Shown here: positions 5,095 through 38,104 of the stretch, one piece after another | How the letters are laid out: every line of letters starts with the position of its first letter | Position numbering within the stretch: the stretch's first letter is position 1 | Origin: Candidatus Ruthenibacterium merdigallinarum | GTDB lineage: Bacteria > Bacillota > Clostridia > Oscillospirales > Ruminococcaceae | Direction: 5' to 3' | Length of the DNA: 38,538 nucleotides | Assembly (NCBI GenBank): GCA_019113785.1 | Contig: DXGT01000023.1 | Location: forward strand, 1 to 38,538 | Made by a program: the position numbers and the translations under genes | The notes under the pieces: generated by a model | What the model saw: only the letters and a program-made list of their open reading frames with translations | Databases searched by the model: none | What the model was told of the DNA's origin: nothing

Positions 5095-5123
5095 TTGACA
5101 AGAACAAAACACTGTGCTATCAT
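5095..5123 (+). promoter_or_regulatory. promoter of tRNA-Arg
   Basis: TTGACA (5095-5100), 17 nt, TATCAT (5118-5123). Confidence 0.75.
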
Positions 5124-5156
5124 AATTAAGCACCTTTCAGAAGGTGCTTCGTTCGT

Positions 5157-5233
5157 GCGCTGCTAGCTCAGTTGGATAGAGTGTTTGGCTACGAACCAAA
5201 AGGTCAGGGGTTCGAATCCCTTGCAGCGCACCA
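5157..5233 (+). tRNA. tRNA-Arg (anticodon ACG), CCA encoded
   Basis: Acceptor GCGCTGC/GCAGCGC, TA at 8-9, anticodon arm TTTGG-CTACGAA-CCAAA, T-loop TTCGAAT, discriminator A plus CCA. Confidence 0.96.
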
Positions 5234-5264
5234 GCGCCGCGGCTTTTCAGCCGCGGCGCTTTTT
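5234..5264 (+). terminator. tRNA terminator
   Basis: GCGCCGCGGC-TTTTCA-GCCGCGGCGC then TTTTT. Confidence 0.9.
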
Positions 5265-5566: not shown

Positions 5567-5595
5567 TTGACAGGGGAAAAAACGGGCGATATAAT
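5567..5595 (+). promoter_or_regulatory. consensus sigma70-type promoter of ABC importer/mobB operon
   Basis: TTGACA (5567-5572), 17 nt, TATAAT (5590-5595). Confidence 0.85.
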
Positions 5596-5601
5596 GGCCT
5601 T

Positions 5602-5690
5602 GTTTCCGAACCGGGTGGCCTACCGCGATATGCCATGGCCTGCCGGTCTGTGAGGGCGGGTGCGCCCTCCGCGAGTGGCGCGGGAAACGG
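5602..5690 (+). ncRNA. candidate Moco/Tuco-riboswitch-like leader
   Basis: Begins at the predicted TSS: CCGGGTGGCCTACCGCG...GGCC-TGCC-GGTC...GAGGGCG-GGTG-CGCCCTC-CGCGAGTGGC-GCGGGAAACGG; order of conserved blocks resembles my recollection of the Moco RNA motif; lies upstream of an ABC importer, mobB and mobA region. Confidence 0.45.
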
Positions 5691-5734
5691 CGCCGCTTTC
5701 CGTGTTTGAGAAGGAGACGGCAACCGAACATTCC

Positions 5735-5764
5735 GCGCATCGCCTGCGGCGGGTGTGCTTTTTT
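5735..5764 (+). terminator. leader terminator/attenuator hairpin 1
   Basis: GCGCATCGCC-TGC-GGCG(G)GTGTGC then TTTTTT (one bulge, G-U pairs). Confidence 0.6.
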
Positions 5765-5769
5765 GCGAT

Positions 5770-5802
5770 GCTGTCTTGTTCCGGGAACAGGGCGGCTTTT
5801 TT
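5770..5802 (+). terminator. leader terminator/attenuator hairpin 2
   Basis: GCTGTCTTGTTC-CGG-GAACAGGGCGGC (12 bp with G-U pairs) then TTTTTT. Confidence 0.7.
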
Positions 5803-5937
5803 GTTTGCAAAAGCCGCGGCGGCCCGCGGACAGCAGGCGGTCGAAGAATAAGGACGCGGCCGTGCGGTTCATGGCGGCGGCCCCGCGGACGCGGGGCCGG
5901 TCTTGCAAAATACGGTTTGCCAAGGGGGGTGGATGCA

Positions 5938-6945
5938 GTGAAAAAACGGCCTTGCGCGGTGCTGCTCGCGCTGGCGCTGCTTTTGCTGGCGTCGGTGCTG
6001 GTGTCCGTCTCGCTGGGGCGCTACGCCATCTCGCCCTCCGAGCTTGTCGGCATCCTGCGCGCGCAGCTCTTTGGCGGGGAGGTCTACTGGTCGCCGATCC
6101 AGCAATCGCTGCTTTTGAACCACCGGCTGCCCCGCGTAGCGGCCGCCTGCCTGGTGGGCGCGTGCCTGGCCGCCGCCGGGGCGTCTTATCAGAGCGTGTT
6201 CCAAAACCCCATTGCGGCGCCCGACATCCTCGGCGCGTCCTCCGGCGCGGCGCTGGGGGCCGCGCTGGCGATCTTCCTCGGATGGGACGGCACGGCGCTG
6301 GTGCTGTCGGCGTTCCTCTTCAGCCTGGGCACGGTGGCCGCCGTGCTTTTCATCGGCAGCCGCACGCGCGGCAAGCGCACGCTGGGGCTGGTGCTCGCCG
6401 GCGTGATGGTCAGCTCGCTTGTGTCCTCAATGACCTCGTTCATCAAGCTGGTGGCCGACCCGGAGGACCAGCTGCCCGCCATCACCTACTGGCTGATGGG
6501 CAGCTTGAACGGCATTGCCCCGCAGGATCTGGTGTTTGCCGTGTGGCCCATGCTGGCGGGGCTTGTGCCGCTGCTGGCGCTGCGCTGGCGCATCAATGTG
6601 CTGACGCTGGGCGATCAGGAGGCGCAGGCCATCGGTGTGGATGCGCGCCGCCTGCGCGCGCTGGTCGTCCTGTGCGCGACGCTCGTCACGGCGGCCAGCG
6701 TCTCCATCAGCGGCATGATCGGGTGGGTGGGGCTTGTGATCCCGCATTTTGCGCGGCGCATCGTGGGCAGCAACTACCGCTATCTGCTGCCGGCCGGCGC
6801 GCTGCTCGGCGCCGTTTTCCTGCTGTGGGTGGACGACATCTCCCGCAACCTGATGGCCACCGAGATCCCCATCGGCATCCTCACCTCGTTTTTGGGCGCG
6901 CCGTTCTTTTTATATCTGATCTCCCGCGGGGGTGAGCGCATTTGA
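5938..6945 (+). CDS. FecCD/BtuC-type ABC transporter permease
   Basis: GTG 5938 after aaggggggt; LGRYAISPSELVGILRAQLFGG...NHRLPRVAAACLVGACLAAAGASYQSVFQNPIAAPDILGASSGA...GWVGLVIPHFARRIVG typical of the siderophore/B12/molybdate permease family. Confidence 0.9.
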   Translation: MKKRPCAVLLALALLLLASVLVSVSLGRYAISPSELVGILRAQLFGGEVYWSPIQQSLLLNHRLPRVAAACLVGACLAAAGASYQSVFQNPIAAPDILGASSGAALGAALAIFLGWDGTALVLSAFLFSLGTVAAVLFIGSRTRGKRTLGLVLAGVMVSSLVSSMTSFIKLVADPEDQLPAITYWLMGSLNGIAPQDLVFAVWPMLAGLVPLLALRWRINVLTLGDQEAQAIGVDARRLRALVVLCATLVTAASVSISGMIGWVGLVIPHFARRIVGSNYRYLLPAGALLGAVFLLWVDDISRNLMATEIPIGILTSFLGAPFFLYLISRGGERI

Positions 6946-7757
6946 GCATCTGTGTGGACCATCTGAGCTTCTCCTACGGCGGCGGCCCGGTGCTGCGGGA
7001 CGTCAGCTTTTGCATGCAGGAGGGGGAGTTCCTCTCCGTGCTGGGGCCAAACGGCGTGGGAAAAAGCACGCTGTTCCGCTGCATGCTGGGCCAGCTCGCG
7101 CCGCAGAGCGGCAGCGTCACCGTGCAGGGCAAGCGCATTGAGGCGATCCCGCCCCGAAACCGTGCCCGGCTGATCGCCTACATCCCCCAGTCGCACAACC
7201 CGGTGTTCAACTTCACGGTGCGGGACATGGTGCTGATGGGCACCATCGCGCAGACGGGCGTGTTCTCGGCCCCCGGCGCAGAGCAGGAGGCCCTTGCCGA
7301 AAAGACGCTGCGTCAGCTGGGCATCGCCCATCTGGCCGGCTGCGGCTACGCCAGCATCAGCGGCGGCGAGCGTCAGCTGGTGCTCATCGCGCGGGCCATT
7401 GCCCAGCAGGCGCACATCCTTGTGATGGACGAGCCCACGGCCAATCTCGATCTGGGCAACCGTATCCGTGTGCTGCGGGCGGTGCGCGCGCTCGCACAGC
7501 AGGGCTACGGGGTGATCCAGTCCACCCACGACCCCGAGCAGGCCTATCGCTATTCCGACCGGGTGCTGGCGCTGTACGAGGGCCGGGTGCTGGCGCTGGG
7601 CACGCCGCAGAGCGTGATCGACGGGCCGCTGATCTCAAAGCTGTACGGCGAGGAGATACAGGTGTGCAGCCTGCGGGACGATACGGTGCGCGTGTGCGTC
7701 CCCGCCGTAGGCTGCGAGGAGAGGAAGGAGAAACCAACATGCGAAAACAATGTCTGA
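6942..7757 (+). CDS. FecE/BtuD-type ABC transporter ATPase
   Basis: TTG start overlapping the permease stop; Walker A GPNGVGKSTL, signature ISGGERQLVLIARAIAQ, Walker B ILVMDEPTANLD. Confidence 0.93.
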   Translation: MSICVDHLSFSYGGGPVLRDVSFCMQEGEFLSVLGPNGVGKSTLFRCMLGQLAPQSGSVTVQGKRIEAIPPRNRARLIAYIPQSHNPVFNFTVRDMVLMGTIAQTGVFSAPGAEQEALAEKTLRQLGIAHLAGCGYASISGGERQLVLIARAIAQQAHILVMDEPTANLDLGNRIRVLRAVRALAQQGYGVIQSTHDPEQAYRYSDRVLALYEGRVLALGTPQSVIDGPLISKLYGEEIQVCSLRDDTVRVCVPAVGCEERKEKPTCENNV

Positions 7758-8842
7758 GCCTTTTGACCGCTGCGGCGCTGTGCCTGCAGCTGTGCGCCTG
7801 CGCCGCCCCCGCGGCCGGCGCGTCCGCCTCTGCCCCGGCCGCGCAGAGCGCGTCCGCGTCCGCCGGGCAAGAGGGTTTTTCGTTCACCGACGACATCGGG
7901 CGCACCGTCGAGCTGGCGGCGCAGCCCGAGCGGATCGTGCCGGCCGCGCCGCTGGCGCAGATTATCCTGTTTGCCATCGCGCCGGACAAGCTGGCCGGCC
8001 TTTCGAGCGAATGGTACGACTCCGCCCGCGGCATCATCGGCGAGCAGTATTTCGAGCTGCCGGTCTTCGGCGGGCTGTACGCCTCGGCCGACCTGAATGT
8101 GGAGGAGCTGGCCGCCGTGCAGCCGGACCTCATCATCGACATCGGCGAGGAGAAGGATTCGTCCGTCGACGACCTCGACCGCCTGCAGCAGCAGACGGGC
8201 ATCCCCACGGTGTACATTTCGGCGGACCTCGCGTCCATGACGCAGACCTTCCGCACGCTGGGCGCGCTGCTGGGCGAGGAGGAACAGGCGGAAAAGCTGG
8301 CCTCCTTCTGCGAGCGGGTGTATCAGCGCACGCTGTCCATCATGGAGCAGGTGGGCGACGACAAAGCGGACGCGCTGTACGTCATCGGCGACAAAGGGCT
8401 GAACGTGCTGGCGAAGGGCTCGTACCACGCCGAGCTGCTGGACCTGCTGACGAACAATCTGGCCGTGGTGGACACGCCTTTGAGCAAGGGAACGGGCAAT
8501 GAGGTCAGCATGGAACAGATCTCGCTGTGGGACCCGTCGTTCGTCATCTTCGCGCCGGACAGCATCTACGACACCGCCAAGCAGGACCCCAGCTGGAGCC
8601 AGATCGACGCCATCGTCCACAACAACTATGTGCGCGTGCCCGACGCGCCGCACAACTGGATGAGCATGCCGCCTTCCGTGCAGCGTTATCTGGGCCTGAT
8701 CTGGCTGCCGGCAGTGCTGTACCCGGAGTACTGCGACTATGACCCCGAGGAGGAGATCCGGGAATATTACGAGCTGTTTTACCACTGTGAACTGACGCAG
8801 GAGCAGTACCGTCAGATCACGGACGGCGCGTTTTTGGAGTGA
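7739..8842 (+). CDS. ABC transporter substrate-binding lipoprotein (iron-siderophore/B12/molybdate class)
   Basis: MRKQCLSLLTAAALCLQLCAC lipoprotein signal; FTDDIGRTVELAAQPERIVPAAPLAQIILFAIAPDKLAGLS... class-III SBP; start ATG 7739. Confidence 0.88.
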   Translation: MRKQCLSLLTAAALCLQLCACAAPAAGASASAPAAQSASASAGQEGFSFTDDIGRTVELAAQPERIVPAAPLAQIILFAIAPDKLAGLSSEWYDSARGIIGEQYFELPVFGGLYASADLNVEELAAVQPDLIIDIGEEKDSSVDDLDRLQQQTGIPTVYISADLASMTQTFRTLGALLGEEEQAEKLASFCERVYQRTLSIMEQVGDDKADALYVIGDKGLNVLAKGSYHAELLDLLTNNLAVVDTPLSKGTGNEVSMEQISLWDPSFVIFAPDSIYDTAKQDPSWSQIDAIVHNNYVRVPDAPHNWMSMPPSVQRYLGLIWLPAVLYPEYCDYDPEEEIREYYELFYHCELTQEQYRQITDGAFLE

Positions 8843-8846
8843 GCGT

Positions 8847-9362
8847 ATGCACTGCCTGATCGTGGGCCCGCCGGGCGTGGGCAAAAGCACGCTGATCTGC
8901 CGCGTGCTGCGGGAGCTGGCGCTGCCGGTCGCCGGGTTTGTGACGAAAAAGCAGCCGGCGCCAGCCGGGGAAACGCGCGGCTGCCCCGTGTATCTGTACC
9001 CCGCGGACGAAGCGGAAAAGGACGGGGCGCTGGTCTGTTACTGCGGGCAGAAAAACCTCGAGCAGGCGCGTGAGGCGTTCGACCGGTTCGCGCCGCGCCT
9101 ACTCGAAGAGGCCGCGCCCGGCAGCGTTTTCCTTATGGACGAGCTGGGGTTCCTCGAATCCCGCGCGCAGGCGTTTTGCAGCGCCGTTTTGCAGCGGCTG
9201 GACGGGGACGTCCCGGTGATTGCCGCCGTCAAGGACCGCGAGACCCCGTTCCTCGCGCAGGTGCGCGCGCACGGGAACTGCCGCGTGTTCCCCATCAGCC
9301 GGGAAAACCGCGACGCGCTGTTCTTCGATGTCCTGGAATTTATGAAACAACAGACGAGGTGA
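8847..9362 (+). CDS. THEP1-like nucleoside-triphosphatase
   Basis: 171 aa; MHCLIVGPPGVGKSTLICRVLREL...GFVTKK...VFLMDELGFLE; THEP1/DUF265-like P-loop NTPase. Confidence 0.8.
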   Translation: MHCLIVGPPGVGKSTLICRVLRELALPVAGFVTKKQPAPAGETRGCPVYLYPADEAEKDGALVCYCGQKNLEQAREAFDRFAPRLLEEAAPGSVFLMDELGFLESRAQAFCSAVLQRLDGDVPVIAAVKDRETPFLAQVRAHGNCRVFPISRENRDALFFDVLEFMKQQTR

Positions 9363-9369
9363 AGCGGAA

Positions 9370-9924
9370 ATGGCTCGAAAGACCCTGATTTTGAACGGTT
9401 CGCCGCGCGAGCACGGCAACACGGCCGCGCTCGTCGCCGAGCTGAAAAAGCACCTTTCCGGCGAGGTGGTGGAGCTGTCGGCGTACCGCTCCCGCATCGC
9501 GCCCTGCGTGGATTGCCGCCGCTGCTGGACAACGGCGCAGTGCGCGGTGCGCGACGAGATGCAGATCGTTTACGACGACGATTTCGACAACGTCGTGATC
9601 GCCTCGCCCGTCTATTTCAGCACGCTGACGGGGCCGCTGCTCGGCGTGATGAGCCGCATGCAGCCCTGGCACGCCGCCATGTTCTTTTTGCACCGGCCGC
9701 TGTGCCAGCGCAAAAAGAAAGCGGCCGCCATTCTGACGGCCGGGGGCAAGGGGAACCAGGGCAACGCGTCGCACCACCTCAGCGCGTTTTTCCGCATGCT
9801 GAACGCCGAGGGGTTCCGCGAGCACACGGTCTGCTCGGCGAACACGGACACGGTCCCCGCCTGGCAGGACGCCGACGCCATGCGCCGGACGGCCGAGCTG
9901 GCAAAGTGGCTGATGGAAGATTGA
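9370..9924 (+). CDS. flavodoxin-like / NADPH-dependent FMN reductase family protein
   Basis: MARKTLILNGSPREHGNTAALVAELKKHL...CVDCRRCW...DNVVIASPVYFSTLTGPLLGVMSR. Confidence 0.85.
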   Translation: MARKTLILNGSPREHGNTAALVAELKKHLSGEVVELSAYRSRIAPCVDCRRCWTTAQCAVRDEMQIVYDDDFDNVVIASPVYFSTLTGPLLGVMSRMQPWHAAMFFLHRPLCQRKKKAAAILTAGGKGNQGNASHHLSAFFRMLNAEGFREHTVCSANTDTVPAWQDADAMRRTAELAKWLMED

Positions 9925-9938
9925 AGGAGGGGTCCAGA

Positions 9939-10439
9939 TTGCAGAAGATTCCCGCCGTGGGCTTTTCCGCGTTTTCCGGAACGGGGAAGACCACCCTGCT
10001 GGAGCGCCTGATCGGCTGCCTCAAGCAGGAGGGCCTGCGCCTTGCCGTGGTCAAGCACGACGCGCACGATTTTACCATCGACCACCCCGGGAAGGATTCG
10101 TGGCGCTTTGCGCAGGCGGGCGCCGACGCGGTGCTCATCAGTTCGGGCGCGAAAACGGCCCTCATCGAGCAGCGGCCCCGCACGTTCGAGGAAAATCTGG
10201 CGGCCCTGCGCGATGTGGACCTGATCCTCGTGGAGGGCTATAAACAGCAAGACCTTCCCCGGGTCGGCCTGTGCCGGAAGGCCACCGGGAAAGGTCTGCC
10301 CTGCGATGCTGCGGCGTACATCGCGCTTGTCACAGACGACGAGGCGCTGCGCGCGCGCAGCGCCGTTCCGTGTTTCGGGTTTGAGGATGCGGCGCCGCTG
10401 GCAGAATTCCTGCTGCGCTACACGGGCCTGCGGCGCTGA
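9939..10439 (+). CDS. mobB: molybdopterin-guanine dinucleotide biosynthesis protein B
   Basis: TTG 9939 after ggagggg; KIPAVGFSAFSGTGKTTLLERLIGCLKQEGLRLAVVKHDAHDFTIDHPGKDSWRFAQAGADAVLISS...ILVEGYK. Confidence 0.93.
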   Translation: MQKIPAVGFSAFSGTGKTTLLERLIGCLKQEGLRLAVVKHDAHDFTIDHPGKDSWRFAQAGADAVLISSGAKTALIEQRPRTFEENLAALRDVDLILVEGYKQQDLPRVGLCRKATGKGLPCDAAAYIALVTDDEALRARSAVPCFGFEDAAPLAEFLLRYTGLRR

Positions 10440-10446
10440 GCGGGCG

Positions 10447-11067
10447 CTATTGGCTCGGTGTGCGGCGCAGCGCCTCGTACGCCTGCGGCGTGTTGACGTT
10501 GAACAGCTGGCCTTCCAGCGCCAGAGGGACGGTCGCCTCGCACACGGCGCAGCCCGAGAGAAAGCGCATCACGCGCCGCTCCCCGCCCTCCAGGCAGGCG
10601 CGGGCGGCCGGCTCCAGGCTTTTTCTGTAAATACCGCACAGGGGATGGCTTCGGCCGTCCCCTGTTTTTGCAATGCAGGCGTCCAGCCCGTCCCGCCAGC
10701 AGCCATACAGAAAGCGCACCAGGCGCATCGTGAGCAGGGGCGTGTCACAGGCGGTGAAAAACACGAGCGGAGTCCGGGCCTGCGCAAGGCCGGTGGCCAT
10801 GGCGCCCAGAGGCCCGCAGCCGGGGTACAGGTCCTCTGCCGTCTCCAGCGAGGGGTCGAAGCGCTCTTTGCGGTCCACCGAGACAAAGCGGCGGGGAAAC
10901 GGCGAGAGCTCGCGGTACAAAACCGTGAGGAACGTCTCGCCCTGCCACAAAAGGCCGCTTTTCATCTGCCCGCCCATGCGTTTTGCCTCGCCGCCCGCCA
11001 AAATCACCGCGGTGCTCTGTTCGATCAGCGCGTCTGTGCGCGCGCAGTTTTGCACAGGCCTATCCAA
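10447..11067 (-). CDS. mobA: molybdenum cofactor guanylyltransferase
   Basis: STAVILAGGEAKRMGGQMKSGLLWQGETFL...GCGPLGAMATGLAQARTPLVFFTACDTPLL; exact start uncertain. Confidence 0.88.
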   Translation of the reverse strand: MDRPVQNCARTDALIEQSTAVILAGGEAKRMGGQMKSGLLWQGETFLTVLYRELSPFPRRFVSVDRKERFDPSLETAEDLYPGCGPLGAMATGLAQARTPLVFFTACDTPLLTMRLVRFLYGCWRDGLDACIAKTGDGRSHPLCGIYRKSLEPAARACLEGGERRVMRFLSGCAVCEATVPLALEGQLFNVNTPQAYEALRRTPSQ

Positions 11068-17945: not shown

Positions 17946-20009
17946 ATGAGTGAAGAGAAGATCGTAAAAACCCTGTGCCGCATGTGCGACGACCATTGCG
18001 GCATCGACGTGCATGTCAAGGACGGCAAAGTGGTGAAGATCGAGGGCAACCGCGAGCACGAGTGGAACCACGGCCGTCTGTGCATCAAGGGCAGCCACGG
18101 CGTGGAGATGATCTACGCCAAAGACCGCATCCACAAGCCCCTGAAAAAGACGGAGAACGGCTTTGTGGAGATCAGCCTCGAGCAGGCGCTCGACGAGATC
18201 TGCGAAAAGCTGGGCAAGATCCGCGACGAGTACGGCGCGCGCAGCATCGGCGTGTGGAAGGGTGAGGCCACGGGCTTCGCTCAGGAGGAGGAGCTGGCCC
18301 GCCGGTGGATCCACGCGCTGGGCAGCTCGAACTATTTCTCCAACGACTCCGAGTGCTCCATCGCCCGCCTGATCGGCGCTTCGCTGGTGTACGGCCGCTG
18401 GTCGGCCCAGCCCAATTACCCGAATTCGCGCTGCATCGTGATCTGGGGCTCGAACCCGCCCCACGCGCATCCCAACATGACCCAGCAGATCAACGCCGCG
18501 CGCGAAAAGGGCGCAAAGCTGATCGTCATCGACCCGCGCTACAGCGCGATGGCCCGCCAGGCCGACATCTACGTGCAGGTCAAGCCCGGCAGCGACGGCG
18601 CGCTGGCCCACGGCATCGCCCGCGAGCTGATCGCCCACGGATGGATCGACCGCGAATTCATCGACAATTACAGCGTCGGCTACGACAAGTACGAGGCCTA
18701 TGTGCAGAAGTTCGACTACGCCTATGTCTCCGGCGAATGCGGCATCGACGCGGCGGCGCTGATCCCGCAGATCGCCGCCGAGCTGCACAAAGCGGCGCCC
18801 CGTGTGGCCATCTATGTGGGCAACGGCCTCGAGCACCACGAAAACGGCATCAACAACATCCGCGCCGTGTTCTGCCTGGACGGCCTGCTGGGCAGTGTGG
18901 ACGCCGAGGGCGGCAATTACTTCTCCGTGCCCTCGGGCCAGCGCAGCCTGACGATCTACAACGAACGTCCGCTGCTGGAGCAGGGGCCCATCGGCGTTGA
19001 CAAGTACCCGGTTTTGTACGATTACCACAAAGAGTGCCACACCATGACGCTGATGGACGCCATCCTGTCCGGCAAGCCCTACCCGTTCAAGGCGCTGGTG
19101 ATGACCGCGGCGAACCCCGTGCTGACGAACCCCAACACGCCGAAGGTGAAAAAAGCGCTCGCGAGCCTCGATCTGTTTGTCGTGCGCGATCTGTTCCTCA
19201 CCGAGACGGCCCAGCTGGCCGACTATGTCCTGCCCGCGGCCTCGTACCTTGAGCGCAGCGAGCTGCACACCTTCAGCGGCCTGCAGAAGATCGCGCTGAC
19301 GAGCCGCGTATTGCAGCCCGAACCCGATGTGCAGGACGAATATCAGTTCTTCCACGACACGGCCCATCGCCTGGGCGCGGGCGAATGGTTCCCCTGGAAA
19401 GACGAGGACGAGCTGAACGAGTGGCTGGTGGAGGACTGCGCGTTCACCATCGAAGACCTGAAGAACAACCCCTCGGGCTATCATTACGCCGAGCACCAGT
19501 TCCAGAAATACAAGGCGAACGCCGCCGCCGGGAAAAAGCCCTTCAACACGCCCACCGGCAAAATGGAATTCGCCTGCCAGTACCTGAAGGATCTTGGGTA
19601 TCAGGAGCTGCCGGAGTATTTCCCCCCGCGCTCGAATGCGAGCCCCAGCGCAGAATATCCGTTCACGCTGGTGACCGGCGCGCGCAAGGTGATGTACTAC
19701 CACGGGCGCAACCACAACCTGCCCGGGCTGGCCAGCGCCATGCCGGACCCCGAGATCGAGATGAACCCGCAGGACGCAGAGCGCCTGCACGTCGCCAGCG
19801 GCGATGTGGTGCGCGTCACCTCGGCCATCGGTTCGATCGAGATCCCCGTCGCCGTGATGCAGGAGGGCGAGATCGGCGTCGGCGTGGTGCAGATCACGCA
19901 CGGCTGGAAGCAGGCGGACGTGAACCGCATCACCCACGACGACCGGTTCGACCCCATCAGCGGTTTCCCCTTGATGAAGGCCGTGCAGGTGAAGATCGAA
20001 AAAGTATGA
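17946..20009 (+). CDS. molybdopterin-dependent oxidoreductase (DMSO reductase superfamily), catalytic subunit
   Basis: 687 aa; CRMCDDHCGIDVHVKDGKVVKIEGN...GRLCIKG [4Fe-4S] motif; WGSNPPHAHPN; RQADIYVQVKPGSDGALAHGI; no Tat signal. Confidence 0.93.
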   Translation: MSEEKIVKTLCRMCDDHCGIDVHVKDGKVVKIEGNREHEWNHGRLCIKGSHGVEMIYAKDRIHKPLKKTENGFVEISLEQALDEICEKLGKIRDEYGARSIGVWKGEATGFAQEEELARRWIHALGSSNYFSNDSECSIARLIGASLVYGRWSAQPNYPNSRCIVIWGSNPPHAHPNMTQQINAAREKGAKLIVIDPRYSAMARQADIYVQVKPGSDGALAHGIARELIAHGWIDREFIDNYSVGYDKYEAYVQKFDYAYVSGECGIDAAALIPQIAAELHKAAPRVAIYVGNGLEHHENGINNIRAVFCLDGLLGSVDAEGGNYFSVPSGQRSLTIYNERPLLEQGPIGVDKYPVLYDYHKECHTMTLMDAILSGKPYPFKALVMTAANPVLTNPNTPKVKKALASLDLFVVRDLFLTETAQLADYVLPAASYLERSELHTFSGLQKIALTSRVLQPEPDVQDEYQFFHDTAHRLGAGEWFPWKDEDELNEWLVEDCAFTIEDLKNNPSGYHYAEHQFQKYKANAAAGKKPFNTPTGKMEFACQYLKDLGYQELPEYFPPRSNASPSAEYPFTLVTGARKVMYYHGRNHNLPGLASAMPDPEIEMNPQDAERLHVASGDVVRVTSAIGSIEIPVAVMQEGEIGVGVVQITHGWKQADVNRITHDDRFDPISGFPLMKAVQVKIEKV

Positions 20010-31022: not shown

Positions 31023-31382
31023 ACCCGAAGACCTCCGTTACTCGTTTCCTGTTTTCCATCGGCGTTGACAAATCCGGCAAAGCCGACAGCAAATGTCATA
31101 ACCATGATAATAGAAAAAACACACCGCGGCAAGACGCGCCGCGCAAATTCTCGGCCTTGGCCCCAAAAGGTCGGCAAAACGCACGGGGGAAGCGGGAGAA
31201 GGCGCTTGCGGAAATCCAGAGAAATCGGAGAGCAATGGGCCATATTGCACAAAAAGGCCCCCCGATATTCGCCCTTTTGCACCATCTTTTGCGCCGGAAG
31301 AAAAAGGCCTTTTTATCGTACAAAGGAGATGATACACTGATAGTACATCGGAGAACCGCAGAATTGCAAAGGGATGTGCCTT

Positions 31383-32804
31383 ATGAAGCTGTTTGAGAAA
31401 ATCCCGGCGAGTTTCTTTTCTGTCCTGGCCTCGCCGAACCGCGAAATTTATTGGGCGGCGCTGGCTACCCTGCATCAGCTGCTGGAATGCGACTTGAATA
31501 TCCCGGTGGATGATTACTGTGTGGCGCTGGGCGATAAACTTTCCGATCTGGAGCTTTCGGCGGAAGATTCTATGGACGAGGAAGAGAAGGACTTGATCCG
31601 GCGGCCCAATGGAAAAGCCCGCTGGATCGTCCACCGGCTCAAGCGCGCCGGCTGGCTCGACACCGAGTATCGGGACGGCACGTTTGAGGAAGTGATCGCG
31701 CCGCGGGATTATGCAGACCAGATGATCCGCCTTTTGCTGGAGCTGGAGCGCTCCGAAACGAAAGAGTACAACTCCCTGGTGTTTTCTACTTACAGCGGGC
31801 TGAAGCAGGCTTATGTGGAAAAATCCGACCGCATGTACGAAGCCCTGCTCACGGCGCGGAGAAATACCGCAAAGCTTTTGCAGGACTTGAAAAGCCTTTA
31901 CCACAACATTCGGTATTATCATCAGATCGTCGGGCAGGCGGTGGACGTCAACCAGTTGCTGCATGACTACTATGACGAATACAAGGGCATGCTGGACAGG
32001 ATCTATCATCCCATCAAGACGATGGATTCGCTGTCGCACTACCGGCAGCCGATCCTGGATATCCTCAGCGCCCTGCTGGTGGACGATGAGATCATGGAGC
32101 GCGCTGTGGGACGAATGGTGCAGCTTCATCCGGACGAGGAGCCGGCGCAGGCGCGCCGCACCCTGGAGAGCTATATACAGGAGCTTTTGAGCAGCTATTC
32201 CAGTGTGGAAGAAATTTTGCGGCAAATCGACCGCAAGCACCGGGCCTACACGCGGGAATCGGTGGACAGCATCAAATACCGCATGTCGGCCGATCACAGC
32301 ATTGCCGGGAAACTGACCGAATTGCTGCGCGCGGCGTCGGAGACGGCGCCCAAACAACTGCGGGAGGCGATGCTGGCCCGGATGCAGGAGGGGGTTCAGT
32401 GTGAAAACCAGGCTTTCGCCGACGCGGGTTCGTTCTGGCACCCTACCGTGCGCAGCCGGAGGGCCGGCGCTCCGGATCGGATCGTGCAGGACCTCTCCCC
32501 GGAGGAAGAGCGGGAATTGCGGCAAACCTTCCGCGCAGACCGAAGCCGGCGGTACTCTGTCGCCCGTGCGTGGCAATATCTGGCGCACATGTTGGAAGGA
32601 AAAGAAACGGTGACCAGCGAGGAGCTTGCGCTGGAGAAGGACGATCAATTTATCTGGCTTTTGATGGCCGCGGTGCGCTCTACCGACCGCAGCGCGCCGT
32701 TTTCCGTGGAATTTTTGCCGGGAGAAACCGAGAACGGCGGCTATCGGATCCCCCGTATGCGAATCAGCCGAAAAAACCATGACAGAACGGAGGAGGGCAC
32801 CTGA
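31383..32804 (+). CDS. jetA: Wadjet system protein JetA (kleisin-like; DUF5716-like)
   Basis: MKLFEKIPASFFSVLASPNREIYWAALATLHQLLE..., first of four overlapping ORFs in jetABCD order. Confidence 0.85.
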   Translation: MKLFEKIPASFFSVLASPNREIYWAALATLHQLLECDLNIPVDDYCVALGDKLSDLELSAEDSMDEEEKDLIRRPNGKARWIVHRLKRAGWLDTEYRDGTFEEVIAPRDYADQMIRLLLELERSETKEYNSLVFSTYSGLKQAYVEKSDRMYEALLTARRNTAKLLQDLKSLYHNIRYYHQIVGQAVDVNQLLHDYYDEYKGMLDRIYHPIKTMDSLSHYRQPILDILSALLVDDEIMERAVGRMVQLHPDEEPAQARRTLESYIQELLSSYSSVEEILRQIDRKHRAYTRESVDSIKYRMSADHSIAGKLTELLRAASETAPKQLREAMLARMQEGVQCENQAFADAGSFWHPTVRSRRAGAPDRIVQDLSPEEERELRQTFRADRSRRYSVARAWQYLAHMLEGKETVTSEELALEKDDQFIWLLMAAVRSTDRSAPFSVEFLPGETENGGYRIPRMRISRKNHDRTEEGT

Positions 32805-33502
32805 TGTGGATGGAGGACTATGAGGCCTTGCATGCAGCGGAGAAAGCGGAGTTCCGCCGTCTTGCCAATGCGCTGCTGTCCCGCACGTACCTGCTGCGCA
32901 ACGTCTACGACGACCAGAAGAAAATGATGGACATGAACAGCGATTATCGAACGGCGCGGCGCTTTTTTTCCATTTTGCAGGGCTATTTTTCCCTTGCGGG
33001 GTGGGATTTGTACCGGGACGATGAGTACGGGGTGATCTACCTGCGCAACCAGCAGGGGAGCAACCGGGTCCGGTTCGGCATCTTCACGACGAAGTTTCTG
33101 TATACGCTCCGCCTGATCTATGAGGAAAACCGGCAGCAGGTAGAGCTGCACCACGACGTGCGCACCGATACCTTTGCCGTCATCAACAAGATGGGCGCCC
33201 TGGGCATACTGAAAGACGGGCGCTCTACCGCCAAGGAGCGGGAGGAAGCCCAAAAGACCCTGGCGCGGTACCGGGTGATCGCCAAGCTCGACGGGGGATG
33301 GAAAACAGACGGCAACAAATTGCTGATCTATCCCACCATCCTGTTTTTCGTGCCGAACAGCGAAATCAACGCCATGTGCCGGCAATTGCAGGAGATGCGC
33401 CAAAACCTGCAGGGAGCGGCAAATGGCACAGAGGAACCGATGAGCGGCGAAGAGGAAGAGACCGGCGGAGAAGGCCCGGCGGAGGAAGGAGAGGATTCCT
33501 GA
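32804..33502 (+). CDS. jetB: Wadjet system protein JetB (DUF4194-like, KITE/MukE-like)
   Basis: TGATG overlap with jetA; RRLANALLSRTYLLRNVYDDQKKMMDMNSDYRTARRFFSILQGYFSLAGWDLYRDDEYGVIYL. Confidence 0.88.
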   Translation: MWMEDYEALHAAEKAEFRRLANALLSRTYLLRNVYDDQKKMMDMNSDYRTARRFFSILQGYFSLAGWDLYRDDEYGVIYLRNQQGSNRVRFGIFTTKFLYTLRLIYEENRQQVELHHDVRTDTFAVINKMGALGILKDGRSTAKEREEAQKTLARYRVIAKLDGGWKTDGNKLLIYPTILFFVPNSEINAMCRQLQEMRQNLQGAANGTEEPMSGEEEETGGEGPAEEGEDS

Positions 33503-36500
33503 TGAAGCGGCTGAAGCGGATGCTGCTGATCAACTGGTACTTTTTCCAGAAAGAGGTGATCGAGTTTGACACCCTGACTTTCCTGACGGGCAAAAACGGC
33601 ACGGGGAAATCCACCATCATCGACGCTTTGCAGCTGGTGCTGCTCGCCGACACGAGCGGGAGCTTTTTCAACAAATCGGCAAACGGGAAATCCCGGCGCA
33701 CGCTGGCCGGTTATCTGCGGGGCGAGTTGACGGACGACGAGGCGGGCGGGTTTACCTGCTTGCGCAACGACCGCTTTACCAGTTATGTGGCGCTGGAATT
33801 TTATGACGAGGAGAAGGGCCGGCCCTTTACGGCGGGCTGCTGCTTTGACGTATATTCCGCCAGCGATACGCCGCACGTTTTCTTCGGTTACCACGGCGCC
33901 ATACCGGAAGATCTGTACATTGTAGAGGGCCTTCCGCTGTCCATTGAAAAATTGCGCCGGTGGATCTATGCCGAACACCCGGAATCCACCAAAATGATCA
34001 CGTCTGTCAACAAAGAATTCCGGGACTATCTGTACGGGAAGCTGGGCGGTTTGCAGGCGAAATTCGCGGACCTTTTCAAAAAGGCGGTGCCGTTTACGCC
34101 CATCGCGGACATCCAGAAGTTCATCACCGAGTTTGTGTTCGGGCATGAGCAGCCGGTGGACATCCGCGCGATGCAGGAGACCATCGAGAGCTATACCCAG
34201 ATGGAGCAGGAGGCCGCCCGGCTGCAAGAGCGGCAGGCGCTTTTGGAGGAGATCGCCTCTCAGCACGGGGAATACCGCCGGCTGCGCGCGCAGGTGCAGA
34301 CCAACCAATACATTGCCGAACGCGCCGACTGCGATTTGGCCGCCCGGGCGGCCGAAGCCAAAAAGCAGGACCTGGCCAGGCAGGAACAAAAGCTGGAACA
34401 GGATCGCCTCGCGTTAAAGGAAAAGCGGCGGGAGTCCGAGGCGATCGACGCGCAGTACACCCGCGTGAAAACAGAGCTGGCCTCCTCCGGTTTGCAGCGG
34501 CACATCGAGGAACTGGAGAAGGCAAGGGATGCGCTGAAACAGCAAATTGCCGGCTGGCAGACAGCGTACGACAAAAGGAACCGGGACTTTGCCCGCCTGA
34601 CGGCCAACTGGAGAGAAGTGCTGCGCGGCTGCGGCGCGCTGCCGGCGGAGAAAACCGAAGTGCTGGGAGAGCGCACAAAGGTGAGCCTGGAGACCTTTGC
34701 GCAGCAGAGACAGGCGGCGGCGCGGGCGATGGAGACGCTGGCGAGCAAAGAGCTGTCCGCAATCGCTCTGCCGGATGCGCAGGCCGCCGGCCGCGCCATG
34801 CTGGCGCTGGACCGCGGCGTCGTGGCGCTGCAAGACAATGTGGAACAGGACCTGCGCGAGGCGGCGCAGGCCGTCGCCGCCCTTGTGGAGGAACAGAGCT
34901 CCCTGCAGGCCGGGCGGCAGCGCTATCCCGAATCCGTCACGGCCCTGCGGCGGGCCCTGGAGGGGCGGCTGGCGGCGCAGACCAACGCCGGCGCCTCTGT
35001 TCGGATGGTGGCCGAGCTGTGGGATGTGCGGGATCAGGCCTGGCGCAACGCCGTAGAGGGATACCTCAATACCCAGCGCTACAATTTGCTGGTGGCGCAA
35101 GAGGACTATCAGGCCGCGGCGGCCATTTACGATTCCGTCAAGGACATTTTGCATATCCACGGGGTGGCGGTGGTGGACATCGCCGCCATCCGGCGGCTGC
35201 GCCCCGAGCGCCGTCCGGGAAGCCTTGCGGAGGAGATCGTGACGGACGACGCGGACGCCCGCCTGTACGCCGACTTCCTTTTGGGGCGCGTGATGAAATG
35301 CGAAAACCTGCAAGAGCACAACCGGCAGGAGATCTCCATCACAAAGGGCTGCATGCTCTACCAGCAAAAGGCGATCCGCCATTTGAACCCCAAGGTCTGG
35401 GAGCGGCCCCTGCTGGGGCAGGGCGCGCGATTGCTGCGCCTGCGCCAGGTGGAAGAAGAGCTGGAGCAGAAACGCAGGGCCAGCGAGCAGGTATCCTGCT
35501 GGAGCGTGGCGCTGAGGAAAATCGCGCGGCGGCAATGGCTGGGCACTTCGGAACTGGAGGACTGGGACGCGGCGCAAAAGGCGCTCGCCATGATCCCGGC
35601 CGCGCGGAGAGAGTGGGAAGAAAAGCAGGCCGAGCTGGACGCCATCGACCGGGAGCCGCTGTTTGCCCTGCAGGAAAAGGAACAGGAGCTGAAACGCGCG
35701 CGGACGGAATGCTACGAGCAAATCGACGCGCTGAACCGCTCCATCGGAGATAAAGAGCGGGCCTGCCGCATTTTGCGGGAGGAACAGATCCCGCGGGCCC
35801 AGGCGGAACAGGAGCGCCTGCGGCATGAGCTGGAGGGAGCCTACCCGGCAGACTGGCGCAGCCAGGTGGGCGAGCCCCGTTACCGGCAGGAAATTTCCAC
35901 CCACGCCGGCCTGGAGGAAGTCAGCGCCAACTTCCGGCGCAGCGCCAAACAGGCCGGAACCTCCGCCGATAAGGCGTGGAGCGGCCTTCGGGATGCGAGG
36001 ATCGACTATAACCGCCGCTACCAGATGGGGCTGGATGTGGAGAAGGAGGACAACGCGGCCTTTGACGAGATCCTGCAGGAGATCCGGGAAAACCGACTGC
36101 CCGCGTATTTGGGGAAAATCCGCGACGCCAAAGAAAAGGCGATGGAACAATTCCAGGAGGAGTTCATCGGCGTGCTGCACACTAACATCAGCAATGCGGA
36201 ACGGGCGATCCGGGATTTGAACTACGCGCTGCGCGCCACGCCTTTTTCGGAGGATTCCTACGCGTTCCAGGTCAAGCCGAACCCGGAATACCGGCGCTTT
36301 TACGATATGTTCACCGACCGCATGAACCTGGAAAGCTATACGCTCTTTGCCGAGCAGTTCCGGCAGAAATACGCGGCGGAGATCGAAGAGTTGTTCGGCA
36401 TTTTGACCAGTACCAATACCGGCGACATCGACAAGCGGGTGGAGCAATACACGAACTACCGCACCTATCTGCAATTCGACCTCACGGTCACCACCCCGGA

Positions 36501-36864
36501 CGGCCTGGTGCAGCGGCTTTCCCGCATGATGGAGAAGAAATCCGGCGGCGAGACCCAGACGCCGTTTTACATTGCGGTGCTGGCGTCCTTTGCCCAGCTC
36601 TACCGCATGGACCGCGACCCCCGCGGCAGCACCATCCGGTTGATCGTCTTTGACGAGGCGTTCTCCAAAATGGACGGGGAGCGCATTACGCAGAGCATGA
36701 AGATCCTGCGGGATTTCAAGTTCCAGGTGATCCTCTCGGCGCCGCCGGATAAAATCGGGGACATCTCCACCCTGGTGGATCGCAACCTGTGCGTGATGCG
36801 CAAAGGGCACACCACCATCGTCCGGGCTTTTGACCCGCGGGAGGAAGAATATGTCGAATCTTGA
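33502..36864 (+). CDS. jetC: Wadjet system SMC-like ATPase JetC
   Basis: ATG 33502 (TGATG overlap); Walker A LTGKNGTGKSTIIDALQLVLLADTSG, long coiled coils, signature KKSGGETQTPFYIAVLASF, Walker B IRLIVFDEAFSKMDGERI. Confidence 0.93.
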   Translation: MKRLKRMLLINWYFFQKEVIEFDTLTFLTGKNGTGKSTIIDALQLVLLADTSGSFFNKSANGKSRRTLAGYLRGELTDDEAGGFTCLRNDRFTSYVALEFYDEEKGRPFTAGCCFDVYSASDTPHVFFGYHGAIPEDLYIVEGLPLSIEKLRRWIYAEHPESTKMITSVNKEFRDYLYGKLGGLQAKFADLFKKAVPFTPIADIQKFITEFVFGHEQPVDIRAMQETIESYTQMEQEAARLQERQALLEEIASQHGEYRRLRAQVQTNQYIAERADCDLAARAAEAKKQDLARQEQKLEQDRLALKEKRRESEAIDAQYTRVKTELASSGLQRHIEELEKARDALKQQIAGWQTAYDKRNRDFARLTANWREVLRGCGALPAEKTEVLGERTKVSLETFAQQRQAAARAMETLASKELSAIALPDAQAAGRAMLALDRGVVALQDNVEQDLREAAQAVAALVEEQSSLQAGRQRYPESVTALRRALEGRLAAQTNAGASVRMVAELWDVRDQAWRNAVEGYLNTQRYNLLVAQEDYQAAAAIYDSVKDILHIHGVAVVDIAAIRRLRPERRPGSLAEEIVTDDADARLYADFLLGRVMKCENLQEHNRQEISITKGCMLYQQKAIRHLNPKVWERPLLGQGARLLRLRQVEEELEQKRRASEQVSCWSVALRKIARRQWLGTSELEDWDAAQKALAMIPAARREWEEKQAELDAIDREPLFALQEKEQELKRARTECYEQIDALNRSIGDKERACRILREEQIPRAQAEQERLRHELEGAYPADWRSQVGEPRYRQEISTHAGLEEVSANFRRSAKQAGTSADKAWSGLRDARIDYNRRYQMGLDVEKEDNAAFDEILQEIRENRLPAYLGKIRDAKEKAMEQFQEEFIGVLHTNISNAERAIRDLNYALRATPFSEDSYAFQVKPNPEYRRFYDMFTDRMNLESYTLFAEQFRQKYAAEIEELFGILTSTNTGDIDKRVEQYTNYRTYLQFDLTVTTPDGLVQRLSRMMEKKSGGETQTPFYIAVLASFAQLYRMDRDPRGSTIRLIVFDEAFSKMDGERITQSMKILRDFKFQVILSAPPDKIGDISTLVDRNLCVMRKGHTTIVRAFDPREEEYVES

Positions 36865-38104
36865 GACGGCGTTGCTGGACGCCTTGCTGGACCGCTATGA
36901 ACGCAGCCGCGGCTTCAAGGAAAACCGCAGCCAGCGCCGCCGGGTCCAGCTGCAAATGTATGGCGGCGGCAAAACCGATTTCCCCGCCTATGACATTGAG
37001 GACAGCCCCGCGCGAACGGCCGTCAACGAAGCGGCGCGGCGGCTGGCCGGACAGGGCGTGGCCGAACTGGAGTGGATGCGCGGGCAGGAGGGGCATATTC
37101 TGCGCCGCGTCGCGCTGCGTCCGCAGGCGCTGGAAAAAGCATACCGCCTCAGCGGCCGGAGCCCGTTGGCAGACACGGCGCAGCGGCTGGAAGAGCGCCT
37201 GCGGCGGATGCAGCAGGCGGCGCGCGCCGAATGGGTGCGCCGGTATTTGGCGGACGAGCTGGCTTTTCTTTTGAAGAACCGGCGCCCCCCAAAGGCCTTC
37301 CCGGCGGACGCGGGGCAGCAGGACGAGTGGCTGGCGGTGTTGGCGGCGCTGGACGCGCAGGAGCCGGAACAGCCGCTTTTGGAACGGGTGTTTTCCCTGC
37401 GCTGCCTGGGAAACAGCAAAGCGTTTGAAAAGCGCCACCGCTCCCGCCTGCTGCACGTGCTGCGAAAACACCTTTCGCTGGACACCGAGGAGATGCACGA
37501 GGAGGAGCTGCTGCGGCAGGCGGGGCTGGAAAAGTATCCGGAGTGGTTTTCGCTCTGCGGCGCCGTGCAGTTGACGTGGCCGGACGGGAGGGCGCTGGAT
37601 CTTGCCCCTTTGGCGGATGGCGTTCAAATCAGCGCGGCGGATGCCGCCCGCATGCAGATCGCCTATGCGCCGCAGGTCAGCGCCCTTCTGTTCGTCGAAA
37701 ACAAGGCCAACTATTTCGATACGATCCGCAAACACCCCTCTCCGGAACGGGTCGTTGTGTTCCACGGCGGGTGTTACAGCCCCCAGCGCGGGCGTTTTTT
37801 CAAGCAGCTGTGCCGGGCGGCCGGGCCGCAGGTGCAGTTGCTCCATTGGGGCGACATCGACTGCGGCGGCTTCCAGATGGACAGCCGCCTGCGCCGGGAG
37901 ATCGACCCCCGCATCCGCCCCTGGCGCATGGATGCGGAACAGCTTCGGGCGCACCGGGAGCAGGCGGAGACATTCTCCGACGCATACGCGGCAAAACTGG
38001 AACGCCTTCTGCAAGACCCCTGCTTGCAGGACAGCCGGGAGACGATCTTGTACATGCTGCAAAACCGCCTTCGCCTGGAGCAGGAGGCCCTTCTGGAGGA
38101 TTGA
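36851..38104 (+). CDS. jetD: Wadjet system Toprim-domain nuclease JetD (DUF3322/DUF2220-like)
   Basis: ATG 36851 after gaggaag, 14-nt overlap with jetC; C-terminal VENKANYFDTIRKH...VVVFHGGCYSPQRGRFFKQL...LLHWGDIDCGGFQMDSRLR Toprim-like acidic motifs. Confidence 0.9.
   Translation: MSNLETALLDALLDRYERSRGFKENRSQRRRVQLQMYGGGKTDFPAYDIEDSPARTAVNEAARRLAGQGVAELEWMRGQEGHILRRVALRPQALEKAYRLSGRSPLADTAQRLEERLRRMQQAARAEWVRRYLADELAFLLKNRRPPKAFPADAGQQDEWLAVLAALDAQEPEQPLLERVFSLRCLGNSKAFEKRHRSRLLHVLRKHLSLDTEEMHEEELLRQAGLEKYPEWFSLCGAVQLTWPDGRALDLAPLADGVQISAADAARMQIAYAPQVSALLFVENKANYFDTIRKHPSPERVVVFHGGCYSPQRGRFFKQLCRAAGPQVQLLHWGDIDCGGFQMDSRLRREIDPRIRPWRMDAEQLRAHREQAETFSDAYAAKLERLLQDPCLQDSRETILYMLQNRLRLEQEALLED

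Follow-up and report, generated by a model that had tools for sequence, protein, structure and literature searches.

What does an RNA resembling a Moco sensor do in front of an ABC importer of the siderophore class, in a bacterium whose genome yields no match to MoaC or MoeA in profile searches? The question is raised by the window analyzed here, a 38,538-nt stretch of Candidatus Ruthenibacterium merdigallinarum (contig DXGT01000023.1), in which a preliminary description had proposed a Moco/Tuco-like leader upstream of such an importer. Using cmscan against Rfam, we found that positions 5592–5732 on the (+) strand match the Moco/Tuco riboswitch family RF01055 over the full model length (1–135), with a score of 61.4 bits (gathering score, 36) and an E-value of 2.9e-14 in a 701-base search. 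The proposed Moco RNA motif thus passed a cmsearch-type check, and this region is almost certainly a member of the family. It is also the single RF01055 copy in the whole source genome (2.18 Mb, 96% complete). Other Rfam families that matched the leader more weakly (BTnc201 and rnk_pseudo among them) scored below threshold and were dismissed.

The leader is preceded by a sigma-70 promoter, TTGACA-17-TATAAT (5567–5595, [+] strand), in which the −35 box (5567–5572) and the −10 box (5590–5595), separated by a 17-nt spacer, agree with all 12 consensus positions; after dinucleotide shuffling, the region contained a mean of 0.2 promoter-like sites. With 7 nt allowed after the −10 box, the +1 position would lie at about 5602, as had been suggested, and would coincide with the first base of P1, where the transcribed part of the aptamer is predicted to begin. 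Upstream, a tRNA gene (5157–5230; window 5095–5260) follows an 11/12 promoter and is itself followed by a perfect GC-rich terminator.

The aptamer displays the P1–P5 architecture of RF01055, including the conserved junction and GAAA loop, with noncanonical cells confined to P2 (three) and P4 (one). P1 (5602–5718), which had been described as weak, is a sound 6-bp helix with one G-U pair, formed by GUUUCC (5602–5607) and GGAGAC (5713–5718), and the three unpaired or mismatched outer positions of the Rfam P1 model fall upstream of +1. The Rfam match places P2, with a tetraloop-receptor-like internal loop (CCUA...CAUGG), at 5610–5647; its 3′ strand is what had been read as a separate GGCC-UGCC-GGUC hairpin. 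The other elements described earlier are all present, namely the start of the leader, the 7-bp GAGGGCG/CGCCCUC hairpin, which corresponds to P3 (5652–5669, GGUG loop), and the CGCGAGUGGC...GGGAAACGG block, which corresponds to P4 (5673–5698) with its GAAA tetraloop. P5 follows at 5699–5709, and all of these helices lie on the (+) strand.

The anticipated covariation among homologous leaders proved strong. Searching 82 sources with a covariance model built from 24 family members gave 45 matches, one of them in the window; most of these sources had been picked purely by similarity to the window permease. Among the 45 aligned leaders, pairing was seen in 87% of cells (69% in shuffles), with a covariation score of 0.529 (0.205 in shuffles and 0.10 to 0.17 in slid controls), although the alignment was fitted to the model and these figures therefore favor it. 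Double-sided changes occurred in 26 of the 33 base pairs, P4 showed covariation, and 94% of cells in P1 (helix 1) were paired in relatives.

Some gut anaerobes use tungsten. Since RF01055 covers both Moco and Tuco RNAs, the leader could in principle sense the tungsten cofactor instead; we consider this unlikely. P3 has been linked to Moco rather than Tuco RNAs (Regulski 2008, PMC2408646), and every leader examined from a Moa-negative, MopB-positive genome has it, as does the window leader. Moreover, a profile search for AOR family genes found none in the source genome, while 5 of 14 control genomes were positive in the same search. By the Regulski scheme, the window RNA would be of the Moco type, which favors the Moco half of the original Moco/Tuco-like label over the Tuco half. 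Riboswitches that are Tuco-like in having no P3 do precede the same importer family at other loci (L059, L077, L099, L100, L102, L104, L106, and L110), with L059 and L077 belonging to genomes known to be Moa-positive.

Downstream of the aptamer lies an expression platform on which the preliminary description was silent. An intrinsic terminator, consisting of a 12-bp stem (5770–5796) and a U6 tract (together 5770–5802, [+] strand; −17.0 kcal/mol), is preceded by a weaker hairpin (5735–5758) that also ends in U6 (5735–5764, [+] strand; −13.6 kcal/mol) and is possibly a second terminator. The 3′ strand of P1 can pair with the 5′ arm of the terminator to form a 12-bp antiterminator (5710–5712 with 5779–5781 and 5714–5722 with 5769–5777, overall 5710–5781, [+] strand), with a duplex energy of −18.2 kcal/mol versus −9.1 kcal/mol for P1 itself; in 200 shuffles, the P1 strand never paired as well. 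Because P1 and the antiterminator are mutually exclusive, as are the antiterminator and the terminator, ligand binding should end transcription. From this sequence architecture we infer, with considerable confidence, a transcription-termination OFF switch, the direction of regulation being read from the competing helices. Of 29 leaders, 27 had a terminator separating the aptamer from the first gene, compared with 6 of 87 mononucleotide-shuffled leaders. An antiterminator match could be recognized clearly on its own in the window, in L046, L100, and L090, and in a small number of further leaders, and elsewhere it was weak. Platforms of the terminator type have already been reported for some RF01055 members (Regulski 2008, PMC2408646), and in its full-length match, five helices, GAAA tetraloop, P3, and platform, the window riboswitch is an ordinary member of a known family.

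The switch precedes an operon whose first gene starts at GTG 5938, 8 nt after a Shine-Dalgarno-like AAGGGGGG (5922–5929, [+] strand). On the (+) strand, it encodes a FecCD-family permease (5938–6945; PF01032, 1.5e-88), an importer ATPase with a BtuD/FecE-like profile match (6942–7757; PF00005), and a substrate-binding protein (SBP) of the Peripla_BP_2 family (7739–8842; PF01497, model pLDDT 93.7), which together constitute a type II (BtuCD/FecCD) ABC importer. These are followed by a THEP1-like NTPase (8847–9362; PF03266, 1.4e-22), an NADPH-dependent FMN reductase-like flavoprotein (9370–9924; PF03358), and MobB (9921–10439; TIGR00176, 132 bits with a cut-off of 76.2). A MobA-like guanylyltransferase (PF12804, 2.2e-31), scoring 103.6 bits against TIGR02665 (under the cut-off of 151.85), is convergent with the operon (10447–11067, [−] strand). 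Approximately 8 kb beyond the operon, on the same contig as the riboswitch, lies a molybdopterin oxidoreductase of the bis-MGD type with a 4Fe4S cluster and Cys at the metal-ligand position (17946–20009, [+] strand), the sole PF01568 match in the source genome. The described context of mobB, mobA, and a molybdopterin enzyme is thus confirmed by profile matches. The window also holds a complete type I Wadjet (JetABCD) anti-plasmid system at 31374–38104.

The importer had been assigned to the siderophore class, which holds by family (siderophore/B12, FecCD), but siderophores are probably not its substrate. The FecCD and Peripla_BP_2 family names, and the siderophore-binding proteins among the fold neighbors of the SBP, would suit an importer of iron-siderophores whose riboswitch is incidental or degenerate. 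However, the operons carry mob and FmdE genes, and the riboswitch is retained in front of the importer across relatives, which makes this reading very improbable. Specifically, among the 75 loci offering 600 bp or more of upstream sequence, a sample selected by permease similarity and not a census, 26 had a riboswitch no more than 450 bp upstream of the permease on the same strand, and at approximately 12 more it lay ahead of the binding protein or of one or two extra operon genes. Such extra genes encode a metallophosphoesterase, a methyltransferase, FmdE, a MobA-kinase fusion, and MobB. One locus (L056:5241–5591) has two tandem Moco riboswitches before the same importer operon, and in a Moa-positive genome (L023, G221) a Moco riboswitch precedes a different Peripla_BP_2-like binding protein, perhaps that of a true molybdate/tungstate type II importer. 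A Christensenella-like genome has a raiA RNA (RF03072, 166 bits; L062:2766–2968, [−] strand) close to its importer operon.

We then come to the cofactor itself. Profile searches of the source genome, covering the MoaA C-domain, MoaC, and MoeA, gave no match, and Moa/Moe genes were found in 11 of 14 control genomes by the same searches. Hence, a genome with a molybdopterin enzyme, MobA, and MobB is one in which MoaC, MoeA, and the MoaA C-domain go undetected, a point that had also escaped the preliminary description. A gene-content survey of 80 genomes revealed 13 that combine the importer and a PF01568 molybdoenzyme with the absence of MoaC and MoeA (the source genome, G087, G306, G309, G310, G311, G312, G314, G317, G327, G332, G340, and G349). 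These span Bacillota and Spirochaetota, and in all 13 an RF01055 match above the gathering score precedes the importer operon, compared with 2 of 8 importer-bearing genomes with neither MoaC nor a convincing MopB (Fisher P = 0.0005). Metagenome-assembled genomes (MAGs) can miss genes, and stated completeness covers part of the surveyed genomes. However, G087 is 100% complete, with MoaC and MoeA both absent, and sister MAGs agree on the Moa-negative, MopB-positive pattern (three Treponema-like, three Christensenellaceae-like, and two Clostridia), so missing contigs do not explain it well. Within the genus, MopB occurs either with the importer (the source genome) or with MoaC and MoeA (G268), and in the other nine genomes MopB, the importer, and MoaC/MoeA are all below threshold.

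A Moco riboswitch in a cell unable to make Moco is sensible only if Moco comes from outside, and because this genome and others with the same gene set have neither MoaC nor MoeA, the ligand must be supplied externally. We therefore propose an importer that takes up preformed Mo- or W-molybdopterin or a close pterin form. In the proposed mechanism, when no ligand is present the 3′ strand of P1 would pair with the 5′ arm of the terminator, and the operon would be transcribed. Binding of Mo- (or W-) molybdopterin would close P1, allow the terminator to form, and stop expression of the FecCD-type importer, while MobA and MobB would convert the imported cofactor to MGD for the molybdoenzyme, the riboswitch providing end-product feedback as for BtuFCD and B12. 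Taken as a whole, with ligand, substrate, and direction of regulation all deduced, this explanation is one that we favor, if by no wide measure of certainty. Free Moco is very unstable, which counts against an extracellular supply. The eight importer-bearing, Moa-negative genomes in which MopB, and mostly the riboswitch too, is missing likewise weigh against the proposal.

The main rival is that the riboswitch controls a molybdate/tungstate importer resembling MolBCA (HI1470-1472), with Moco genes present but missed or the metal used otherwise. MolBCA transports molybdate; in its host, which is believed to possess another (Mod) system for this oxyanion, it provides low-affinity uptake (PMC4031551). 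It belongs to the same type II ABC importer class, and its binding protein MolA (HI1472) is a distant homolog of the window SBP (2.6e-22), to whose predicted model it ranks sixth by fold (TM 0.71), albeit with 17% identity in the fold alignment. The solved structures closest to the model, 4pag and 4ovk, offered no usable substrate assignment. Moco RNAs are also known before molybdate transporters (Regulski 2008, PMC2408646), and in Moa-positive relatives of the family the same riboswitch is found ahead of modA, tupA, and modB. Against this reading, these Moa-positive members are served by ModA/TupA-type transporters and not by FecCD, and the window importer, unlike MolBCA, occurs with MobB and in the joint absence of MoaC and MoeA that recurs in the complete G087 genome and in sister MAGs. 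With MoeA absent, imported molybdate has no known route into the cofactor, as there is no known enzyme for inserting the metal. An oxyanion importer thus remains a real but less probable alternative, and we lean modestly toward the cofactor as the substrate.

The distribution of the importer bears on both readings. On a tree of 75 SBPs, the Moa-negative, MopB-positive label requires 5 changes, compared with 12.2 when shuffled (none of 500 shuffles was as low). In the 29-row clade containing the window, 17 of 26 known cases are Moa-negative, compared with 3 of 22 outside (P = 0.0004, with rows that are not independent), and nine Moa-positive genomes also fall inside this clade. Desulfosporosinus and Acetobacterium, in which MoaC was present where tested, carry orthologous importers, and Moa-positive genomes have the same riboswitch-importer pair, which can be counted in favor of oxyanion transport. 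The idea that the importer is restricted to non-makers was accordingly rejected; like B12 importers, it is not confined to them. In Pseudoflavonifractor-like genomes (L055, L054, and L096), the importer is present and the riboswitch absent, and searches of two of these genomes detected no MoaC, MoeA, or PF01568-type molybdoenzyme.

Alternatively, the substrate could be a different pterin or a precursor, either metal-free molybdopterin, into which metal would be inserted without MoeA, or a dinucleotide form processed by the THEP1 NTPase and phosphoesterase-like partners. The operon partners (THEP1, FMN reductase, metallophosphoesterase, methyltransferase, and FmdE) do suggest processing of an imported compound, and the permease gives BtuC/F420-0-permease-like profile matches. 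Nonetheless, a cell without MoeA would still have to add metal to imported cPMP or MPT, and we regard this alternative as improbable beside a preformed metal-containing cofactor.

The FecCD-type importer alone does not explain every genome of this kind, a possibility rejected because G062, G102, G244, and G270 do not carry it. Six further Moa-negative, MopB-positive genomes of the window's family have no such SBP, and in the four with readable context (those just named, two of them 99–100% complete) the riboswitch lies directly ahead of a small ECF-S-like membrane protein (L153:8404–9560, L157:10420–11483, L154:7124–8250, and, on the [−] strand, L155:8703–9712), again in genomes without MoaC and MoeA. 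This protein scored above the cut-off for PF09819 in G062 and G244 (L154 and L157), and the G102 copy is 97% identical to that of G244; the more distant G270 protein had no Pfam match. In G062, G102, and G244 (L153, L154, and L157), the next genes encode an anchored small protein of the sulfite-oxidase (SUOX) fold and a fusion of MobA with a kinase-like domain; the PF00174 match was scored in G062 and G102, the latter copy being nearly identical to that of G244. For the corresponding anchored protein of G270, Pfam gave no match. PruR, a secreted protein that binds pterin, shares the PF00174 fold (PMC13259868). This operon is possibly a second Moco importer: its YkoE/ABC_cobalt-type ECF S component, with the SUOX-fold partner, likewise sits right behind RF01055 in Moa-negative, MopB-positive genomes, although it is a transporter type unrelated to the FecCD importer and absent from the window. 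In Moa-positive family members, as read from sequences without profile scoring, the same riboswitch precedes moeA, modA, tupA, modB, or AOR. Comparison of these contexts indicates that the switch sits on importers in non-makers and on synthesis or oxyanion transport genes in makers. Whether a bacterial importer of preformed Mo/W cofactor under a Moco riboswitch feeds molybdoenzyme bacteria in which the biosynthetic pathway was lost or never present, with an ECF-type importer doing likewise in relatives, is in our judgment evenly balanced.

The closest parallel to the proposed system is BtuFCD and the cobalamin riboswitch, in which an end-product riboswitch represses a cofactor importer in makers and non-makers alike. 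The window permease is BtuC-like, but the proposed substrate would be another cofactor, and the riboswitch is of another class. Known RF01055 examples precede moa/moe genes, mod transporters, or molybdoenzymes, whereas the window copy precedes a FecCD-type importer in a genome with no detectable Moco biosynthesis. A literature search, of incomplete coverage, found no prior report of Moco import or Moco auxotrophy in bacteria, nor of a riboswitch link to a FecCD importer in Moco non-makers. The riboswitch itself is not new, but a Moco importer in bacteria would be. Approximately 300 bacteria that carry molybdoenzymes without a full Moco pathway have been counted and left unexplained (Peng et al. 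2018, PMC6147048); the organisms considered here share that gene content, but a candidate importer can now be linked to it. Similarly, according to a 2022 account, no organism other than C. elegans had been seen to take up exogenous Moco (PMC9793310), and a 2026 review noted as unknown how pterins cross membranes (PMC13259868).

If the importer carries Moco, the orphan molybdoproteins, Moco uptake, and the passage of pterins across membranes would all be tied to a defined set of genes open to testing, and a Moco riboswitch carried by a non-maker would serve as a natural sensor of imported cofactor. Our analysis suggests that the source bacterium and many of its relatives take the finished cofactor from outside, in which case Moco would be a shared "vitamin" of gut communities.
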